Notes under the pieces: generated by a model
Told to the model about the DNA's origin: nothing
Databases searched by the model: none
Seen by the model: only the letters and a program-made list of their open reading frames with translations
In this document: in pieces, positions 1,616-21,365 of the stretch
Position numbering within the stretch: position 1 is the stretch's first letter
Layout of the letters: the number at the start of each line of letters is the position of its first letter
From: Bacteroidales bacterium
GTDB taxonomy: Bacteria; Bacteroidota; Bacteroidia; Bacteroidales; UBA932
Reading direction: 5' to 3'
Length of the DNA: 36,353 bases
Assembly: GCA_009781275.1 (NCBI GenBank)
Contig: WQYK01000002.1
Location: 1-36,353 of the forward strand
Position numbers and translations under genes: made by a program

Positions 1616-3592
1616 TTAATGATTGCTAAAAACAACCAGCTTATCTTCGCCGGAGAGGTTTACGTTGATTTTTGACTGATCGCCTTCAAACAAGATGAAC
1701 TTGCCGCCGGACTGCACATAACCCAGCACAATGGTTTTATTCTCACTGGGTGAAGCGTGATAAACAGCCCTGATCAGATCGGCTGCGGTGCAAGGCCCGG
1801 GGATTTCTTTAAAGTATTCAGACACCTTTTTAGTATAGAGCTCTTTGGAGTCTGTCTCTTCATCCTCAGCGTCATCGTAGGTTAGAATATCGTAGTAGAG
1901 GTCAAACAGCGCCTCTTTTTCGCCGATCTGTGCGATTAATTTGCTGATGTAGCGGTTGCTGATCACAATATTCTCTGTACTGTAATTAGATACAATGTCG
2001 TAGTTTTTGGGATTCAGAATCTCAACAACCATGTCGATGGTGTTGGGGTCAAAGTCGGGGTGGTTGATAAGCCGGGTGTTGATCACCTCCTGAACCAAAA
2101 TAAGGTACGTCAACGCATCGGCGTCGATTTGTTCATCGGAAACGTCTTCGTCAGAAAGAATCAATATACATCTGTGTCCATTATGGGCGCCGATAAACCC
2201 TTCGATGATGTCGCAAATGAGATCCTTCTCACTAATGTCGGTCGCGATGACTTTTTTGACAAAGGGATATTGTTTATAGTGATCGTGCTCTTCCAAATAG
2301 TCTTCGTTGTCGATTACAGTGACGTCCAACACTTCCGGTCCGTCCTTTTGCTTCCATTCATTGCTGAATGCCGCGAACCCCTCCATAATCGCTTGGTTCT
2401 TGCTGTTATGTCCCAAAATGATGACATGTTTGTCCTTTATTTCAAAATCGGAATTGATTGAGACCTTAAGGTCATTGCCCTGGGATACGGTTTTAGTGCT
2501 GCGTTTATGTACAGCGCTGTTGGAGAGGTAGTAGAACATTGGTTTACCCGTTCCGTAGCATGTTACGGAAAGAGGGATCGATTCCAAATGATTGTCAAAG
2601 TATCCGGAGATGAACTCATCCTCAGAAGTCGAATGATCCACAGCAGATTGAGAGTGAAAAGTGGCGCCTTTGTGCGAAAACAGATCGTTAAAGACGAGGT
2701 TGAGCTCAGGCATGATCGATATTTGGGGAAAGATCTGCCCCAGGATGTGGTTCACGGCTACGGGCACGATATTGCGCTTGCCTTTTAGCTTAGTGCGACC
2801 GATAATCGTTTCGATCAGTTCAAAGGTCCAGTCGTTTTCGACCTCTACGATCACCTGTTGATTGTCCGCAGAATCTTCTTCTGCCGTCATCTGTACAACC
2901 TGAAGCAGCGTTTTTATCGTAAGCACGTCCTCCTTGTTGAGGATGATCACACTCTTCGCTTTTTTAATCGAAATGTCGTTCAACTGTTTTGTAGACCATG
3001 AATCGCCTTCGCGTACAATGATGGTCAATTTATTTTTCCTGACGGCTTCTTTTTCATCTTCGAGGGTAGCTGACAGCCGTTCATTGATATCATTAAGCAC
3101 CTCCTCCCTGTCGCTCTCCACAAGAATGACGATCTTCTCTTTTGTGTTTTTGTACAAAAACTCATTGACGATTTCGGCAGCGCGGGAGTTCCAGTTTAGA
3201 ATGACGATATGGTTCGATATGTGAAGTTTGCGTGACCCGGAACCGGCATCCTCAATGAAACTTGAGATGAACTCCGTCATATAACCGATCACTGCGCCGG
3301 TAAAGACGATCATTCCCAATATGGCGGTGACAACGCAAAACATGACAAGCAGAGCGCCTATTTCGCCAATATCCTGCACCACAATTTCCAAATAGCCCGT
3401 CAAAAGCATGGTAACGGCGTAGTACACACAGTGCCAATAATCTGTGTTTTCCATAGAAGGCGGAGCGAGCCACATAATGATCAGCGCCGCAATGCTGATA
3501 AAAAACACGTTTGCTATAAGAATCCCCAGTATCACGACCAGCTTTGGCGACTTTGCCGTATATACACTGATCCATTCTCGAATTTTACTCAT
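1616..3592 (-). CDS. CASTOR/POLLUX (DMI1)-like ion channel with TrkA-N/RCK-like domains
   Basis: ORF 1616..3667; likely start at MSKIREW (3592). N-terminal TM/pore region, then HIVILNWNSRAAEIVNEF and HVIILGHNSKNQAIMEGF nucleotide-binding-like repeats. Confidence 0.8.
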   Translation of the reverse strand: MSKIREWISVYTAKSPKLVVILGILIANVFFISIAALIIMWLAPPSMENTDYWHCVYYAVTMLLTGYLEIVVQDIGEIGALLVMFCVVTAILGMIVFTGAVIGYMTEFISSFIEDAGSGSRKLHISNHIVILNWNSRAAEIVNEFLYKNTKEKIVILVESDREEVLNDINERLSATLEDEKEAVRKNKLTIIVREGDSWSTKQLNDISIKKAKSVIILNKEDVLTIKTLLQVVQMTAEEDSADNQQVIVEVENDWTFELIETIIGRTKLKGKRNIVPVAVNHILGQIFPQISIMPELNLVFNDLFSHKGATFHSQSAVDHSTSEDEFISGYFDNHLESIPLSVTCYGTGKPMFYYLSNSAVHKRSTKTVSQGNDLKVSINSDFEIKDKHVIILGHNSKNQAIMEGFAAFSNEWKQKDGPEVLDVTVIDNEDYLEEHDHYKQYPFVKKVIATDISEKDLICDIIEGFIGAHNGHRCILILSDEDVSDEQIDADALTYLILVQEVINTRLINHPDFDPNTIDMVVEILNPKNYDIVSNYSTENIVISNRYISKLIAQIGEKEALFDLYYDILTYDDAEDEETDSKELYTKKVSEYFKEIPGPCTAADLIRAVYHASPSENKTIVLGYVQSGGKFILFEGDQSKINVNLSGEDKLVVFSNH

Positions 3593-3629
3593 GGTATGAT
3601 ATTTAATATTGTATTTTAATGACTTGGCT

Positions 3630-3824
3630 TCATACATCGACCTCTTCCACTCCCCGCTCCACACCACGAAGGTAATCCCTGCAATACTTCACCAAAAAAG
3701 CAGCGCGCTCCAAATCGGCGGCAGCGTTCGACAAATCGGGTTGGTCGTTTTCCCATTTTTTGACTAAGGCGGTAAGCTCTGCCATCGCCTGTGTGTAGTT
3801 GAGTTGGGGGGTCTCTTTTGTCAT
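3630..3824 (-). CDS. xseB: Exodeoxyribonuclease VII small subunit
   Basis: 64 aa, LNYTQAMAELTALVKKWENDQPDLSNAAADLERAAFLVKYCRDYL; directly downstream of xseA. Confidence 0.85.
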   Translation of the reverse strand: MTKETPQLNYTQAMAELTALVKKWENDQPDLSNAAADLERAAFLVKYCRDYLRGVERGVEEVDV

Positions 3825-5039: not shown

Positions 5040-7208
5040 TTATAACGAAATGACCGTGGTGTTCACGATTTGAGACGCGGTTACAGTGAGGGGGGCGTAT
5101 CCGGCAACGGTAAATGTATATTGATGGTAATCTGTTTTTAAAACGGTTTCCTCATCTTTCCTGTGTTGCACGGTAAGCAGGTCAAAGCGAAGCTTTCCGC
5201 TGCTGTCTGTTGTTCCCGTAAAAGTGCGGACGCCGTCAATGGAGATGGCTACTACACTACTTCTTATGGGCTGGCCACCGCCTGTGACGGTCACTTCGCG
5301 GGCGGTTCCGTAGGTGACTTCCATATATCCGGAACTTCCGTAATAATGGGGTGACATTTCAGCAGTGGCAAAATTGATGAGTTCTGTATCTATCATCCTG
5401 TTGTTAAAAGTATTCCAGTTCCAGAAGCCAAGTCGGACGGGGCGAAAGTATTCGCTGTTTTGTTCAATTTTTTCCAATTTGGTGCGGTACATCCAAACGG
5501 AGGAGGTGATGCCGTACCCTTCGCCAATGATGAGAAGGTTTACGTTTCCAATCAGTCGGTTATCTTCAAAAACGACAGGGTCCGGCAGAGCGGGATTGAG
5601 GCCGGGATGGGAGAGGAGCGCTCCGCTAAAGGTGACGGCACAGATGGCGTTATTGACATCTCCGTTATAGTAGGGACTATTGGTGATTTTGACGTTGTCG
5701 GGCATGGCTTCTGCTTTAACGGTGTTGCGGCGATATGTGATCCGCTTATCATTAATCCCGTTGGTTGTCCAGATGCCGCGCGCAAGGGTGCAGCCGTCTT
5801 CTGCTTTAACAACAATTATATTATCTTCATAGAGCATGTAGTCGAAATTATTTTCGCCATAATTGGTGGTTCTGAGTCCTGCCACCGCCGATTTTCTGTC
5901 ATACTCAGTACTGCGAAGGGTAGGTGCATATCCGCGAAGGTAGATAAAGTTGCTCCTGACAATGATATTGTTTGCCCACCCAATGCCAATGGGGTTGTAA
6001 CCCATGCCAAACAGTTTGTTAGAATTGACCGTTGCCCCGTCTCCCGGTCCAATCATAAAGGAGTTGGTGTCAAAACTGTCGGAGTAGAGTTCGTTGTTGT
6101 GGATGCGACCGCTGCTGTAAAGTCCCTGATGGCGAAACCGACGGATTGAGTTCCAGGCCACTTCATTCGTCGTCCGGTTACCCAGCTCAAGAGCCTTAAT
6201 TCCCTGATGACGATTGTCTATCACCGAACCACGGTCAATAATCACATTGTGGTGCACCTTGCCGTTTCCGGCAAAGATGCCCGAAACGCTGTTCCCATAG
6301 TAGTCGACCGTTATCCCCGCCACTTCATTATTGGTATTTGGAGTCATGTGATTCAAAAATATTGGATTAAAACCAACTCCGATAAATCCCGAACCACCGT
6401 TGTCGCCCTGCCTGATGACTCCATTAAAAATTTTGGCGTTGGAAAAGTTCCAGAGTCCGGCCCTGATTCCAAAGGTTGCCTCTTCGCTGTATGCATAGTC
6501 GTTCCAGGCATTCCCGATAACCTTGGGGGTCTGGGTGTCGTAAGTAATTGTGTGTCCGTCTAAATCGATGGTCACGTTGTGCGCCTTAATGTTGATGGCC
6601 AATGTGGGAACCGTTAGGTCACAAGTAAGGACGTATAGAGCACCTCCGTGCGTCAGGTTATAGGGAGGGTCTCCCGTCATGTCGTCCGGAATACGGATGG
6701 CTTCCAAAGGGATTTGGGGAAGGGTAAACATATAATCTCCAGAAATGACCTCTTCTCCCCCTTCATCCATGGCCCTGATGCGGTAATGATAGGTGACGCC
6801 GGGTTCTAATCCTCTTATATAATGGAGATGTTGATAATAGTAAGAGTCGGAAATCTGGGTGTGTTGTCCATACAACACCGTTTTGCCATATTCGACAATA
6901 GAAACCGAAGGGATGTTGGTGGCAAAACCAACGGCAAGCGATGTGTAAGAGGGATGCTCCCAAAAACCGGCCGGCTCTATGAACAGCGTGTTGCCAAATG
7001 TTTCCCTGACCAGAGGCTCCGTTTTGGGAGCAAAATTGGCAATGCAATAGTTAAAAAAGTGTTCATAGTCGTCTTGAGGAGGGGAATAGAGCTCAGGTGG
7101 AAAAAGCAGTTTCTCCGGAATAACCTCCCTTTCTTTGTCATCTGTGAAAATGCATGAAGATAAATGAATCAAAATGACTAAAATACAGATGTTTTTAAAA
7201 AGATTCAT
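5040..7208 (-). CDS. Lipoprotein with fibronectin-III-like region and right-handed parallel beta-helix
   Basis: ORF 5040..7217; start probably M4. Signal peptide with lipobox-like LIHLSSC, FN3-like YYQHLHYIRGLEPGVTYHYRIRAMDEGGEEV, then N/G-rich beta-helix repeats. Confidence 0.7.
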   Translation of the reverse strand: MNLFKNICILVILIHLSSCIFTDDKEREVIPEKLLFPPELYSPPQDDYEHFFNYCIANFAPKTEPLVRETFGNTLFIEPAGFWEHPSYTSLAVGFATNIPSVSIVEYGKTVLYGQHTQISDSYYYQHLHYIRGLEPGVTYHYRIRAMDEGGEEVISGDYMFTLPQIPLEAIRIPDDMTGDPPYNLTHGGALYVLTCDLTVPTLAINIKAHNVTIDLDGHTITYDTQTPKVIGNAWNDYAYSEEATFGIRAGLWNFSNAKIFNGVIRQGDNGGSGFIGVGFNPIFLNHMTPNTNNEVAGITVDYYGNSVSGIFAGNGKVHHNVIIDRGSVIDNRHQGIKALELGNRTTNEVAWNSIRRFRHQGLYSSGRIHNNELYSDSFDTNSFMIGPGDGATVNSNKLFGMGYNPIGIGWANNIIVRSNFIYLRGYAPTLRSTEYDRKSAVAGLRTTNYGENNFDYMLYEDNIIVVKAEDGCTLARGIWTTNGINDKRITYRRNTVKAEAMPDNVKITNSPYYNGDVNNAICAVTFSGALLSHPGLNPALPDPVVFEDNRLIGNVNLLIIGEGYGITSSVWMYRTKLEKIEQNSEYFRPVRLGFWNWNTFNNRMIDTELINFATAEMSPHYYGSSGYMEVTYGTAREVTVTGGGQPIRSSVVAISIDGVRTFTGTTDSSGKLRFDLLTVQHRKDEETVLKTDYHQYTFTVAGYAPLTVTASQIVNTTVISL

Positions 7209-7302
7209 CGCATACAACCTTTAGATGAAGTTGTTGCAAAGATAGTGAAAATCTGCCAAAATCACATATTTTTGTACCTTTGGCGCGAAAAAACATTTAA
7301 AA

Positions 7303-17011: not shown

Positions 17012-17704
17012 ATGTTCAAAGAAAAAATCATTATAGCCATTGACGGATACTCCTCTACCGGAAAAAGCAGCTTTGCCAGGGCAATTGCAGCCAAGTTGGG
17101 ATATACATATATAGATAGCGGCGCCATCTATAGAGCCATCACCTTTTTTGCCATCAAAAACGACTTGTTCAAAGAGGGTTGCGTTGATGAGGCAGCGTTG
17201 CTAAAGAGACTCCCTACCCTCTCCGTATCGTTTTCACCTCCCTCCCCTCCGGATGAGTCTGAAGTGTTGTTGGACGGTACCGATGTCTCACGGGAGATTA
17301 GGTCGCTTGCTGTGTCGGAGATGGTAAGCCCATTAAGCGCACTCCCTTTTGTACGGAATTATGTGGACGGGCTGTTGGAAAAATGGGGCGAACAAAAGGG
17401 GATTGTGATGGATGGACGGGACATTGGTACGGTGGTTTTCCCTCACGCCGAGCTTAAGATTTTTATGACGGCCACTCCGGAAGTTCGTGCACAAAGGCGT
17501 TACAGGGAGCTGCTGAGTCAGGGAGAGGCTCCTTCCTATGAGGACATTTTGAATAATCTTCAAAAACGGGACAATTTAGACCAGCACAGAACCCATGCCC
17601 CTTTGCGTTGCGCATCCGATGCCCTCGTTCTGGATAACTCCCAACTCACTCCACAAGAGCAGATGCAATGGATAGAACAGATTCTTGCGGAACGCTGGGG
17701 TTAA
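17012..17704 (+). CDS. cmk: Cytidylate kinase
   Basis: ORF 16901..17704; likely start MFKEKIIIAIDGYSSTGKSSFARAIA; GIVMDGRDIGTVVFPHAELKIFMTA. Confidence 0.95.
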   Translation: MFKEKIIIAIDGYSSTGKSSFARAIAAKLGYTYIDSGAIYRAITFFAIKNDLFKEGCVDEAALLKRLPTLSVSFSPPSPPDESEVLLDGTDVSREIRSLAVSEMVSPLSALPFVRNYVDGLLEKWGEQKGIVMDGRDIGTVVFPHAELKIFMTATPEVRAQRRYRELLSQGEAPSYEDILNNLQKRDNLDQHRTHAPLRCASDALVLDNSQLTPQEQMQWIEQILAERWG

Positions 17705-18573
17705 CGGTCTCTGTTGACTCCCATTCGGGGTTTTGCTACGGAGTGGTGCGCGCCATCAGAGAGGCAGAGCGCCATCTTAATCAAGATACTCCGTTGTATT
17801 CTCTTGGCGCCATTGTGCACAACAATGAAGAGTTGACCAGACTGTGCGCCATTGGACTCCATGCCATTGAGCCTGAAGAGCTATCCACCCTCTATAACCA
17901 AACCATCATTATTCGCGCCCATGGAGAGCCTCCCGACACTTACGCAATAGCGCACAAGCAAAAACTTACCATCATTGACTGTACCTGCCCGGTAGTGCTC
18001 AAACTTCAAAAAAAGATTAAGGACGAGCACGCACGCATTGCCCCCATCAACGGGCAAATCGCCATCTTTGGAAAAGTGGGGCATGCCGAAATCAACGGGC
18101 TTGTGGGACAAGTGGATGGAGATGCCCGCATCATTGAGCACAGTAGTCAAATTGAGCAGATAGACTATAGTCGACCACTCTCCCTTTTTGCCCAAACCAC
18201 ACAAGATCCCATTGCATTTTTAACGCTTTGCCGCAATATTGAGGAGCAGTACCAACAACATGGAGTTGACCCTGCCTCCTGTTTTAGAGCCTTTAACACC
18301 ATCTGTAAGCAGGTTGCCGAAAGGAGGCCGATTTTGCATCAATTTGCAAAAAGTCACCACACCCTCATCTTTGTAAGCGGTAGAGAGAGTTCCAACGGAA
18401 AAGTTTTGTTTGAAGCGTGTAAAGAGGCTAACCCTCACTCTTTTCATATTGAAAATAGTACCGAACTTTGTCGTGATTGGTTCTCCGCCAAAACTTTGGT
18501 AGGTGTTTGCGGCGCTACTTCCACGCCCAAATGGTTGATGGACGAGGTCGCACAAGCCATTAAAAAGATGTAG
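17668..18573 (+). CDS. ispH: 4-hydroxy-3-methylbut-2-enyl diphosphate reductase
   Basis: 301 aa; HSGFCYGVVRAI, IIRAHGEPP, IDCTCPVV, NTICKQVAERRP, VGVCGATSTPKWLMDEV. Confidence 0.95.
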   Translation: MDRTDSCGTLGLTVSVDSHSGFCYGVVRAIREAERHLNQDTPLYSLGAIVHNNEELTRLCAIGLHAIEPEELSTLYNQTIIIRAHGEPPDTYAIAHKQKLTIIDCTCPVVLKLQKKIKDEHARIAPINGQIAIFGKVGHAEINGLVGQVDGDARIIEHSSQIEQIDYSRPLSLFAQTTQDPIAFLTLCRNIEEQYQQHGVDPASCFRAFNTICKQVAERRPILHQFAKSHHTLIFVSGRESSNGKVLFEACKEANPHSFHIENSTELCRDWFSAKTLVGVCGATSTPKWLMDEVAQAIKKM

Positions 18574-18577
18574 GACG

Positions 18578-20356
18578 ATGATGGTTGCAGAGATCCTCTT
18601 TCCCATGGCGCTGCCGGGCACACTAAGCTATCGAATCTCAGAAAAGGAGGGAGCGACCCTCTCTGTGGGTACTTTTGTCAGGGCTCCTGTGGGAAACCGC
18701 ACCTATTTGGGTATTGTCCACGCCATCCACGCTTCCTGCGACACTTCTCACCTCCCCAACCTTAAGTTCATTACCTCCGTCGAATCTCATCTAATCCCCG
18801 TAAGTCCTAAGAGAATCGAATTATGGAACTGGATTTCTGAATACTACATGTGCTGTTTAGGAGAGGTGATGAAAGCAGCCACAATCACCGGACTTCCCAT
18901 CCGTCACACACCGGCATCGGAGAAACAGGTGGCCGATTGCGACCTTTCCCATATAGCCCTCTCCACACTCTCTCCTCAACAATCAGAGGCATTCCAACAA
19001 ATTCAAGAATGTCTTGTACCTTCCCGGGTGGTGTTGCTTCAAAGTGTTCGCAAAAAAACAGAAATCTACCATCACCTGCTAAAGCAAGCGTTGATTTCCG
19101 GCAAAAGCGTCCTCTTTTTGTTGCCCGAAATTGGGGTCAGCGAGCAATTTTATCAGCAACTCAAATCGCTGTTTGGAGCACGAGCCTATCTCTTTCACTC
19201 CGGCCTGACATCCGTCCAACGGCGAAATATGTTACAAGAGATGGCACAACAAACAGAGCCGATTATTGTAACGGGATTACGTTCTTCTCTTTTACTGATC
19301 GATTTAGAGAAGTTCGATCTGATTATTGTGGACGAAGAGCAAGACGTATCGTACAAACAGACCGACCCCGCCCCGCGTTTTCATGCAAGGGACTTGGCAG
19401 TTGTGGCAGGACATCTTTACCGGATACCCATATTGTTGGGAACTTCCTGCGCCAGTTTGGAGAGTGAATACAACATTAGGACAGGTAAATATCTGCGTAT
19501 CAAAATTGATGAGTCGGATATTGTCACGCCCCACACAGAAGTGATCGACACATCACGGTTGTATAAGAAAAAACAGATGGAAGGCATGATCTCTCATCCC
19601 CTTTTGCAAGCGCTGACCCAAAACCTGACCCAACAAAAGCAGGCGTTGCTTTTTTGCCGACGATGCGCACTGTTGCAGGAGCAGTTGCAATCACTGATCC
19701 CCTTTGCCCGGATCGCCCGACTGGATGAAGATCACACGCCAGCAGCGCTCCGCAGCTTATTGCAAAAGTTTGCCCAAAAAGAGATTGACCTGCTCATTGG
19801 AACGCAAACCATCCACAAAGGGCTATCATTTAACAACATTGGCGTTGTCGGCATATTAGAAGCAGACAAACAGCTTTCCCGACACGACTTTAGAGCACAT
19901 GAACGCGCCTATCAGATATTCATCATGTTGTCCCATCGAATGGAGAGCCCCCCCCTCATCTTTCTTCAAACCGCTCAAGCCGACCACGCATTTTTTAGCC
20001 ACTTTACCCACGGTGATAACGAAAACTTTATCTTAGAACAGCTTCAGGAACGAAAAGAGTTTGGATACCCCCCCTTTACACGCATCATCGCGCTGCGTTT
20101 TAAACACCGCGCTCCCCAAATCTCCCTCGAAGCCGCCCAACAGTGTGCAAATGAGTTAACCAAAACCGGCATCACCCACATCAGCGGCCCCTTCTCTGCC
20201 TACACCCCCAACGCCAAACTCCACACCCAACTGCTTTGGATTCACCTGCCACGCCACTTGGATGGGAACGCGCTAAAAAAGAGACTCTACGAAAAAATCA
20301 CGACGTACTCCTTTCCCAAAGGGGGGGTTATTCAGATTGATGTTGATCCGTATTGA
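18578..20356 (+). CDS. priA: PriA-family primosomal protein N', apparently catalytically degenerate
   Basis: 592 aa, collinear with PriA (VDEEQDVSYKQTDPAPRFHARD, GTQTIHKGLSFNNIGVVGILEAD, DFRAHERAYQ, ERKEFGYPPFTRI, IQIDVDPY) but lacking Walker A, DEEH, GRAGR and the Zn-binding insert. Confidence 0.85.
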   Translation: MMVAEILFPMALPGTLSYRISEKEGATLSVGTFVRAPVGNRTYLGIVHAIHASCDTSHLPNLKFITSVESHLIPVSPKRIELWNWISEYYMCCLGEVMKAATITGLPIRHTPASEKQVADCDLSHIALSTLSPQQSEAFQQIQECLVPSRVVLLQSVRKKTEIYHHLLKQALISGKSVLFLLPEIGVSEQFYQQLKSLFGARAYLFHSGLTSVQRRNMLQEMAQQTEPIIVTGLRSSLLLIDLEKFDLIIVDEEQDVSYKQTDPAPRFHARDLAVVAGHLYRIPILLGTSCASLESEYNIRTGKYLRIKIDESDIVTPHTEVIDTSRLYKKKQMEGMISHPLLQALTQNLTQQKQALLFCRRCALLQEQLQSLIPFARIARLDEDHTPAALRSLLQKFAQKEIDLLIGTQTIHKGLSFNNIGVVGILEADKQLSRHDFRAHERAYQIFIMLSHRMESPPLIFLQTAQADHAFFSHFTHGDNENFILEQLQERKEFGYPPFTRIIALRFKHRAPQISLEAAQQCANELTKTGITHISGPFSAYTPNAKLHTQLLWIHLPRHLDGNALKKRLYEKITTYSFPKGGVIQIDVDPY

Positions 20357-20525: not shown

Positions 20526-21365
20526 ATGGCTCACTATCTTGACCCCAAAAATGATTTAACATTCAAACGTGTTTTCGGCGAACACAAGCATCTTTGTATA
20601 AGTTTAATCAACAGCATGTTGCCGCTTGAAAAACCTGTGGTTAATATTGAATACCAATCCGGCGAGTTGATACCAAGATTGACAGATGTATTGCGCAATA
20701 CGATTGTAGATGTGCGCTGTACCGATTCTGACAATCGTCAATTTATTGTTGAAATGCAGCTGTACTGGTCAGAAAGTTTCAAGAGCCGCGTACTGCTTAA
20801 CGCCTCCAAGGCTTATGTGATGCAGTTGGACAAAGCTCAAGAGTTTGAACTACTTCAACCGGTATATGCCTTAAATTTTGTAAATGATAAATTTGAGAAA
20901 TCACCAGAAATGGCAAACGAGTATTATCACTATTACAAGATTGTAAATATCAGGAATACAGAAAAACAAATTGAGGGGTTGGAGTTTCTTTTTGTTGAGC
21001 TACCCAAGTTTGTGCCACAAAATCGTGCTGAGAAGAAACTTCATGAGTTGTGGATGCGTTTTTTTACAGAGATCAACGAAAACACAAAAGAAATTCCTGT
21101 GGAGTTGTTAGACAATGAGTTCACTCACGAAGCTATAGAATATTTAGAGAAAGCCGCTTACACAAAAGAGCAATTAGAGGTGTACGACAAATGGAAAATT
21201 GCGGCAATGACAGAGCGTAGTGCCTTAAAAGATGCACGAAAAGAGGGAGTCATGGAAGGGATAAAAGAAATTGCTCTAAAAATGTTAAAAAAAGGAGTGT
21301 CTATCAATGAAATTTGTGATTATACAGGCTTATCCCAAGAAAAAGTCAAGGAACTCTCTTCCTGA
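20526..21365 (+). CDS. PD-(D/E)XK nuclease family transposase (Rpn-like)
   Basis: 279 aa; MAHYLDPKNDLTFKRVFGEHKHLCISLINSMLPL, IVDVRCTDSDNRQFIVEMQL, C-terminal LKKGVSINEICDYTGLSQEKVKEL. Confidence 0.92.
   Translation: MAHYLDPKNDLTFKRVFGEHKHLCISLINSMLPLEKPVVNIEYQSGELIPRLTDVLRNTIVDVRCTDSDNRQFIVEMQLYWSESFKSRVLLNASKAYVMQLDKAQEFELLQPVYALNFVNDKFEKSPEMANEYYHYYKIVNIRNTEKQIEGLEFLFVELPKFVPQNRAEKKLHELWMRFFTEINENTKEIPVELLDNEFTHEAIEYLEKAAYTKEQLEVYDKWKIAAMTERSALKDARKEGVMEGIKEIALKMLKKGVSINEICDYTGLSQEKVKELSS

Follow-up and report, generated by a model that had tools for sequence, protein, structure and literature searches.

A PriA orthologue with broken helicase motifs and no zinc ribbon, kept under purifying selection in a Bacteroidales family

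The priA locus and its product

The stretch of DNA analysed here, referred to as the window, comprises 36,353 nucleotides from a Bacteroidales genome (assembly GCA_009781275.1, contig WQYK01000002.1) that is 72% complete and distributed over 238 contigs. The open reading frame at 18578-20356 on the plus strand encodes a protein of 592 amino acids, identified by profile search and alignment as a priA orthologue in which the helicase motifs are broken and the zinc ribbon is absent. According to the gene order its immediate upstream neighbour is ispH (17668-18573, plus strand). A gene resembling transposases of the PD-(D/E)XK nuclease family (PF12784) is found directly downstream at 20526-21365 on the same strand, and two open reading frames on the minus strand, 1616-3667 and 5040-7217, encode proteins of 683 and 725 amino acids with no Pfam-A match over the cut-off.

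The protein matches the PriA profile TIGR00595 over its full length (290.3 and 288.8 bits, cut-off 230.35). The N-terminal 3'-DNA-binding domain (3'BD; residues 1-103, 18578-18886) is conserved and matches PF17764 with 65.6 bits (cut-off 22.7, E 3.7e-18), and Pfam helicase domains are matched as well. The C-terminal domain (CTD; 19988-20353), which contains FGYPPFTR and IDVDPY, is also conserved, and its match to PF18074 of 26.4 bits falls slightly below the cut-off of 26.9. Between these ends lie a short linker (18887-18967) predicted to be disordered, with pLDDT below 50 at residues 104-121, at the site where long PriAs have their winged-helix domain, and two degenerate helicase lobes. Lobe 1 (residues 131-310, 18968-19507) was delimited by Pfam, alignment and predicted structure, and lobe 2 (residues 311-470, 19508-19987) by alignment and predicted structure.

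An AlphaFold model of the whole protein, as the first-pass annotation had proposed, gave a PriA fold with a pLDDT of 85.7 and a pTM of 0.85, although the input alignment consisted of canonical PriAs and may favour a canonical-looking fold. When this model was used in a Foldseek search the top nine matches were all PriA structures, 6dcr, 8fak, 6dgd and 4nl4 among them, and the best relatives in the PDB are the Klebsiella and E. coli PriA proteins. The overall PriA fold is thus predicted to be intact. Like canonical PriA (TIGR00595/PRK05580; E. coli, Klebsiella) the window protein has a 3'BD, two RecA-like lobes and, going by the full-length profile and the fold matches, a CTD, but unlike it the protein has neither P-loop, motif VI, zinc ribbon nor winged-helix domain.

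The state of the motifs was determined by aligning the protein to E. coli PriA (NC_000913) and about 110 relatives. None of the signatures GxxxxGK[ST] (Walker A), DEEH and GRxGR is found, nor is the eight-cysteine zinc ribbon. The Walker A motif, canonically GVTGSGKTE, has become QSVRKKTE (residues 155-162, 19040-19063), which is one residue shorter and has lost every glycine. Motif II reads DEEQ instead of DEEH (19331-19342), a change common to all four genomes of the genus and placed exactly by the first-pass annotation. Translation and comparison with the PriAs of relatives likewise bear out motif III as GTSCAS (19439-19456), and the alignment gives IMLSHRME in place of QVAGRAGR at the site of motif VI (about 19922-19945). 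The region with the eight zinc-binding cysteines is wholly deleted between residues ~363 and 366, near 19655-19675. No displaced catalytic motifs were found elsewhere in the reading frame, neither in the translation nor in the alignment.

The earlier claim that all catalytic motifs are lost holds for the P-loop and for motifs III and VI, but motifs Ia, Ib and V (LIGTQTIHKG) are still present, together with the first three residues, DEE, of motif II and the aromatic-rich loop SYKQTDPAPRFHARD. The catalytic centre is broken, yet with these motifs and the DE of motif II in place weak nucleotide binding may still be possible. The short length of the protein had been ascribed to the loss of the zinc region, which explains it in part; canonical relatives of 665-680 amino acids already carry the short linker at the winged-helix site.

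Copy number, orthology and selection

A profile search with TIGR00595, of the kind that the first-pass annotation had suggested, detected no second PriA in the incomplete window genome. The profile otherwise gives weak and partial matches within further long open reading frames, which would fit helicases such as Mfd and RecG. Exactly one 3'BD is present in every one of the four genomes of the genus, of which two are about 90% complete, and a search for the PriA zinc ribbon found none in any of them. The orthologues of the three other members of the genus are 74, 63 and 48% identical to the window protein and display the same losses in open frames, the one in G003 being interrupted by a contig end. 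Since the losses are common to three congeners with open frames they are not due to chance, and the same observation rules out an assembly error.

The ispH-priA order is shared by the congeners, by genus g22, where PriA is also degenerate, by g14, and by g12 with its canonical PriAs. This common position establishes orthology for the window genus, g22, g14 and g12. In the remaining genera priA has other neighbours, and orthology there rests on sequence and single copy. That the gene might be a paralogue of PriA, one of the options first suggested, is ruled out by the ispH-priA position and by the single 3'BD of each congeneric genome, and the window protein is the organism's true PriA.

The ratio dN/dS is 0.17 between the window gene and that of G002, 0.15 between the window gene and that of G001, and 0.15-0.19 within the genus. 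For pairs of degenerate PriAs with an estimable dS it spans 0.15-0.33, and for canonical pairs 0.10-0.20; the degenerate genes of genus g23 have somewhat higher ratios, up to 0.33, and the values for the more distant pairs are approximate because dS is near saturation. As judged from these ratios the window priA is under purifying selection. Together with the open degenerate gene of the congeners they rule out a simple pseudogene, and the suggestion that the frame is intact and the fold selected agrees with the open frames, the dN/dS values and the predicted structure.

Recurrent losses in the family

The survey of the family covered 399 genomes, of which 208 were rated good. The 3'BD (PF17764) is present in 372 of the 399 genomes and in 203 of the 208 good ones, while the zinc ribbon (PF18319) is found in 282 and 133, respectively. 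Genomes of the order that fall outside the family carry the ribbon in 190 of 194 cases. Genera g1, g13, g14 and g22 are entirely without it and g23, whose members include close relatives of Ca. Cryptobacteroides merdigallinarum, is split. About 115 PriA sequences were extracted, a sample enriched for short frames, and in 29 of these the P-loop, motif VI and the ribbon are all missing. All 29 have open frames, with identities down to 48% within genus g1.

An IQ-TREE phylogeny of RpoB from 71 genomes, with ultrafast bootstrap, was used to map the losses under no-regain parsimony; the window genome, having no RpoB, is represented in it by its congeners. On this tree the ATPase motifs and the ribbon were each lost about five times, counts that are approximate because some of the deeper nodes are weakly supported. 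Both modules were lost in the ancestor of g1 and g22 (97% support), in g13, in the pair G344 plus G374, and in a subclade of 11 genomes within g23. Genus g23 alone accounts for at least two separate losses at nodes with 100% support, with canonical species between them. Two genomes have lost one module each. The PriA of G033, from g12, a genus that includes UBA5548, has kept the eight cysteines and reads NSSNFSGKN and DNEH at the catalytic motifs, motif VI being absent. The PriA of G016 (g14; L010) is without ribbon, but has kept GEPASGKS, EEEH and QIAGRAGR. As these two lost different modules, neither loss needs to come first. The zinc-less G016 protein also provides a natural test of whether helicase activity can do without zinc.

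Two further variants were observed in the survey. Three PriAs of genus g18 (L049, L195 and L196) have an intact P-loop, while their motif II has changed from DEEH to DEEN and their motif VI contains GRCAR, which may represent decay at an early stage. In G014 (L012, genus g12) ispH and priA lie within one open frame of 969 amino acids, a possible IspH-PriA fusion, and the frame in G253 is equally long.

Retention was measured at the positions where canonical PriAs show a conservation of 90% or more. Of these the degenerate PriAs keep 10 of 13 within the 3'BD and 6 of 8 within the CTD, but proportionally fewer in the motor, with 23 of 57 for lobe 1 and 6 of 35 for lobe 2; on this sequence measure the two DNA-binding ends have been preserved and the motor has degenerated. 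Arginine occupies the position of E. coli K230 in 23 of the 29 proteins; the window protein has lysine there, without the glycines. DciA is encoded by 31 of the 32 genomes with an altered PriA.

Degenerate PriAs are also met with outside Bacteroidota. The PRK14873 models (NF011452-NF011455), which we take to represent the actinobacterial type of PriA, are annotated as being without detectable helicase motifs. The window protein matches the PRK05580 models far better (E 5.6e-96) than PRK14873 (7.6e-15) and is therefore a case independent of the actinobacterial type. In a control scan of Corynebacterium (C. glutamicum) the 3'BD was matched and the PriA zinc ribbon was not, consistent with a separate loss of the ribbon in actinobacteria.

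A proposed role for PriA without a motor

The PriA of Deinococcus radiodurans is a demonstrated pseudohelicase: it binds forks and DnaB, yet shows neither ATPase nor helicase activity (Lopper et al., 2015; PMC4504706). Its Walker A and B motifs are degenerate, the P-loop lysine being replaced by arginine (PMC4504706), and the same replacement is the commonest state of the Bacteroidales proteins described above. Both are orthologues that have lost catalytic motifs, and in the Bacteroidales case purifying selection has been measured. The Bacteroidales proteins differ in that the ribbon is deleted and motif VI gone, and in that the losses recur beside canonical sister genera; the Deinococcota controls Deinobacterium and Thermus keep the ribbon, as seen from their PF18319 matches. 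For E. coli PriA the substitution K230R is cited as abolishing the ATPase while primosome assembly is retained (in PMC4504706). This demonstrates with an engineered protein that PriA can work without ATPase, although, unlike the window protein, K230R is a point mutant that retains its zinc fingers.

We consider it likely that the degenerate Bacteroidales protein is an ATP-independent pseudohelicase that serves as a fork-recognition scaffold for the reloading of DnaB. A structural, catalytically dead restart factor was among the options first listed, and it is the reading best supported by the single copy, the dN/dS values, the predicted fold and the recurrence throughout the family. The 3'BD and the CTD would recognise the branch and the nascent 3' end of a stalled fork, and the dead motor would serve as a scaffold contacting DNA. 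The conservation of the 3'BD and the CTD suggests that fork binding and the contact with DnaB are preserved. The scaffold might then recruit DnaB, probably together with DciA, without remodelling the fork, and lagging-strand unwinding, if needed at all, would be supplied by another helicase. The presence of DciA means that a helicase operator is available, and a contact between PriA and DciA would fit this scheme.

Recruitment without zinc fingers is not an obvious property, since in E. coli these are reported to be indispensable both for assembling the primosome and for contacts with partners (PMC7290993). This is also what speaks for a shift in role, by which the protein would now act as a regulator that binds DNA, or would recruit a different machine, with forks being restarted by some other system. 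We find such a shift unlikely, given that the fork-binding ends are the part of the protein that is retained and that the near-universal presence of the gene, its ispH-linked position and the retained DciA all fit restart. Bacteroidota are commonly held to lack PriB and DnaT, the partners of PriA in E. coli, so the zinc requirement may be relaxed, and loss of the ribbon suggests a set of partners that does not use the zinc fingers.

It is also improbable that the protein is an ATP-binding switch, in which the altered P-loop (KKT) and DEEQ bind nucleotide without hydrolysing it and thereby regulate the association with the fork. K160-T161 and D252-E253 are indeed still present in the window protein. 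However, the P-loop ends in KT only here and in G001, the corresponding pair being RK in G002 and RT in G003, the glycines are gone in all four genomes of the genus, and motif VI is absent. Slow erosion of a gene whose helicase has become dispensable would account for the strong degradation of lobe 2 in several lineages and for the elevated dN/dS of some g23 pairs, but it is very improbable and largely refuted by frames that stay open over deep divergence, by dN/dS far below 1, by the canonical positions retained in the 3'BD and CTD, and by the rarity of loss that the near-universal 3'BD of the good genomes implies. A binning or sequencing artefact, conceivable for so incomplete and fragmented an assembly, has a negligible chance of being the explanation and is refuted by the preserved coding constraint and by the same state in independent assemblies, both those of the congeners and good ones assembled into few contigs, G332 and G082 for instance.

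The scaffold reading suggests that restart in these lineages needs PriA to recognise forks and not to act as a helicase. A wider proposal, tentative and in our judgement somewhat short of an even chance, is that restart was rebuilt several times in one family around a PriA free of motor and zinc that passes forks straight on to DnaB (with DciA), so that the modules for helicase activity and zinc binding would be separable and optional add-ons.

No earlier report of a pseudohelicase PriA in Bacteroidota was found in the open-access literature. A PriA pseudohelicase as such is already known; what is new is its repeated origin in one family, the additional loss of the ribbon, and the intermediates that lack a single module. 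Genomes annotated as encoding the replication restart helicase PriA may thus encode no helicase. The prevailing view of PriA is that of a near-universal restart helicase whose zinc fingers primosome assembly cannot do without. The repeated loss of both modules, in either order and beside canonical sisters, offers a natural experiment on what PriA is essentially for, and the question of why its helicase activity is kept at all becomes testable by comparison of close relatives.
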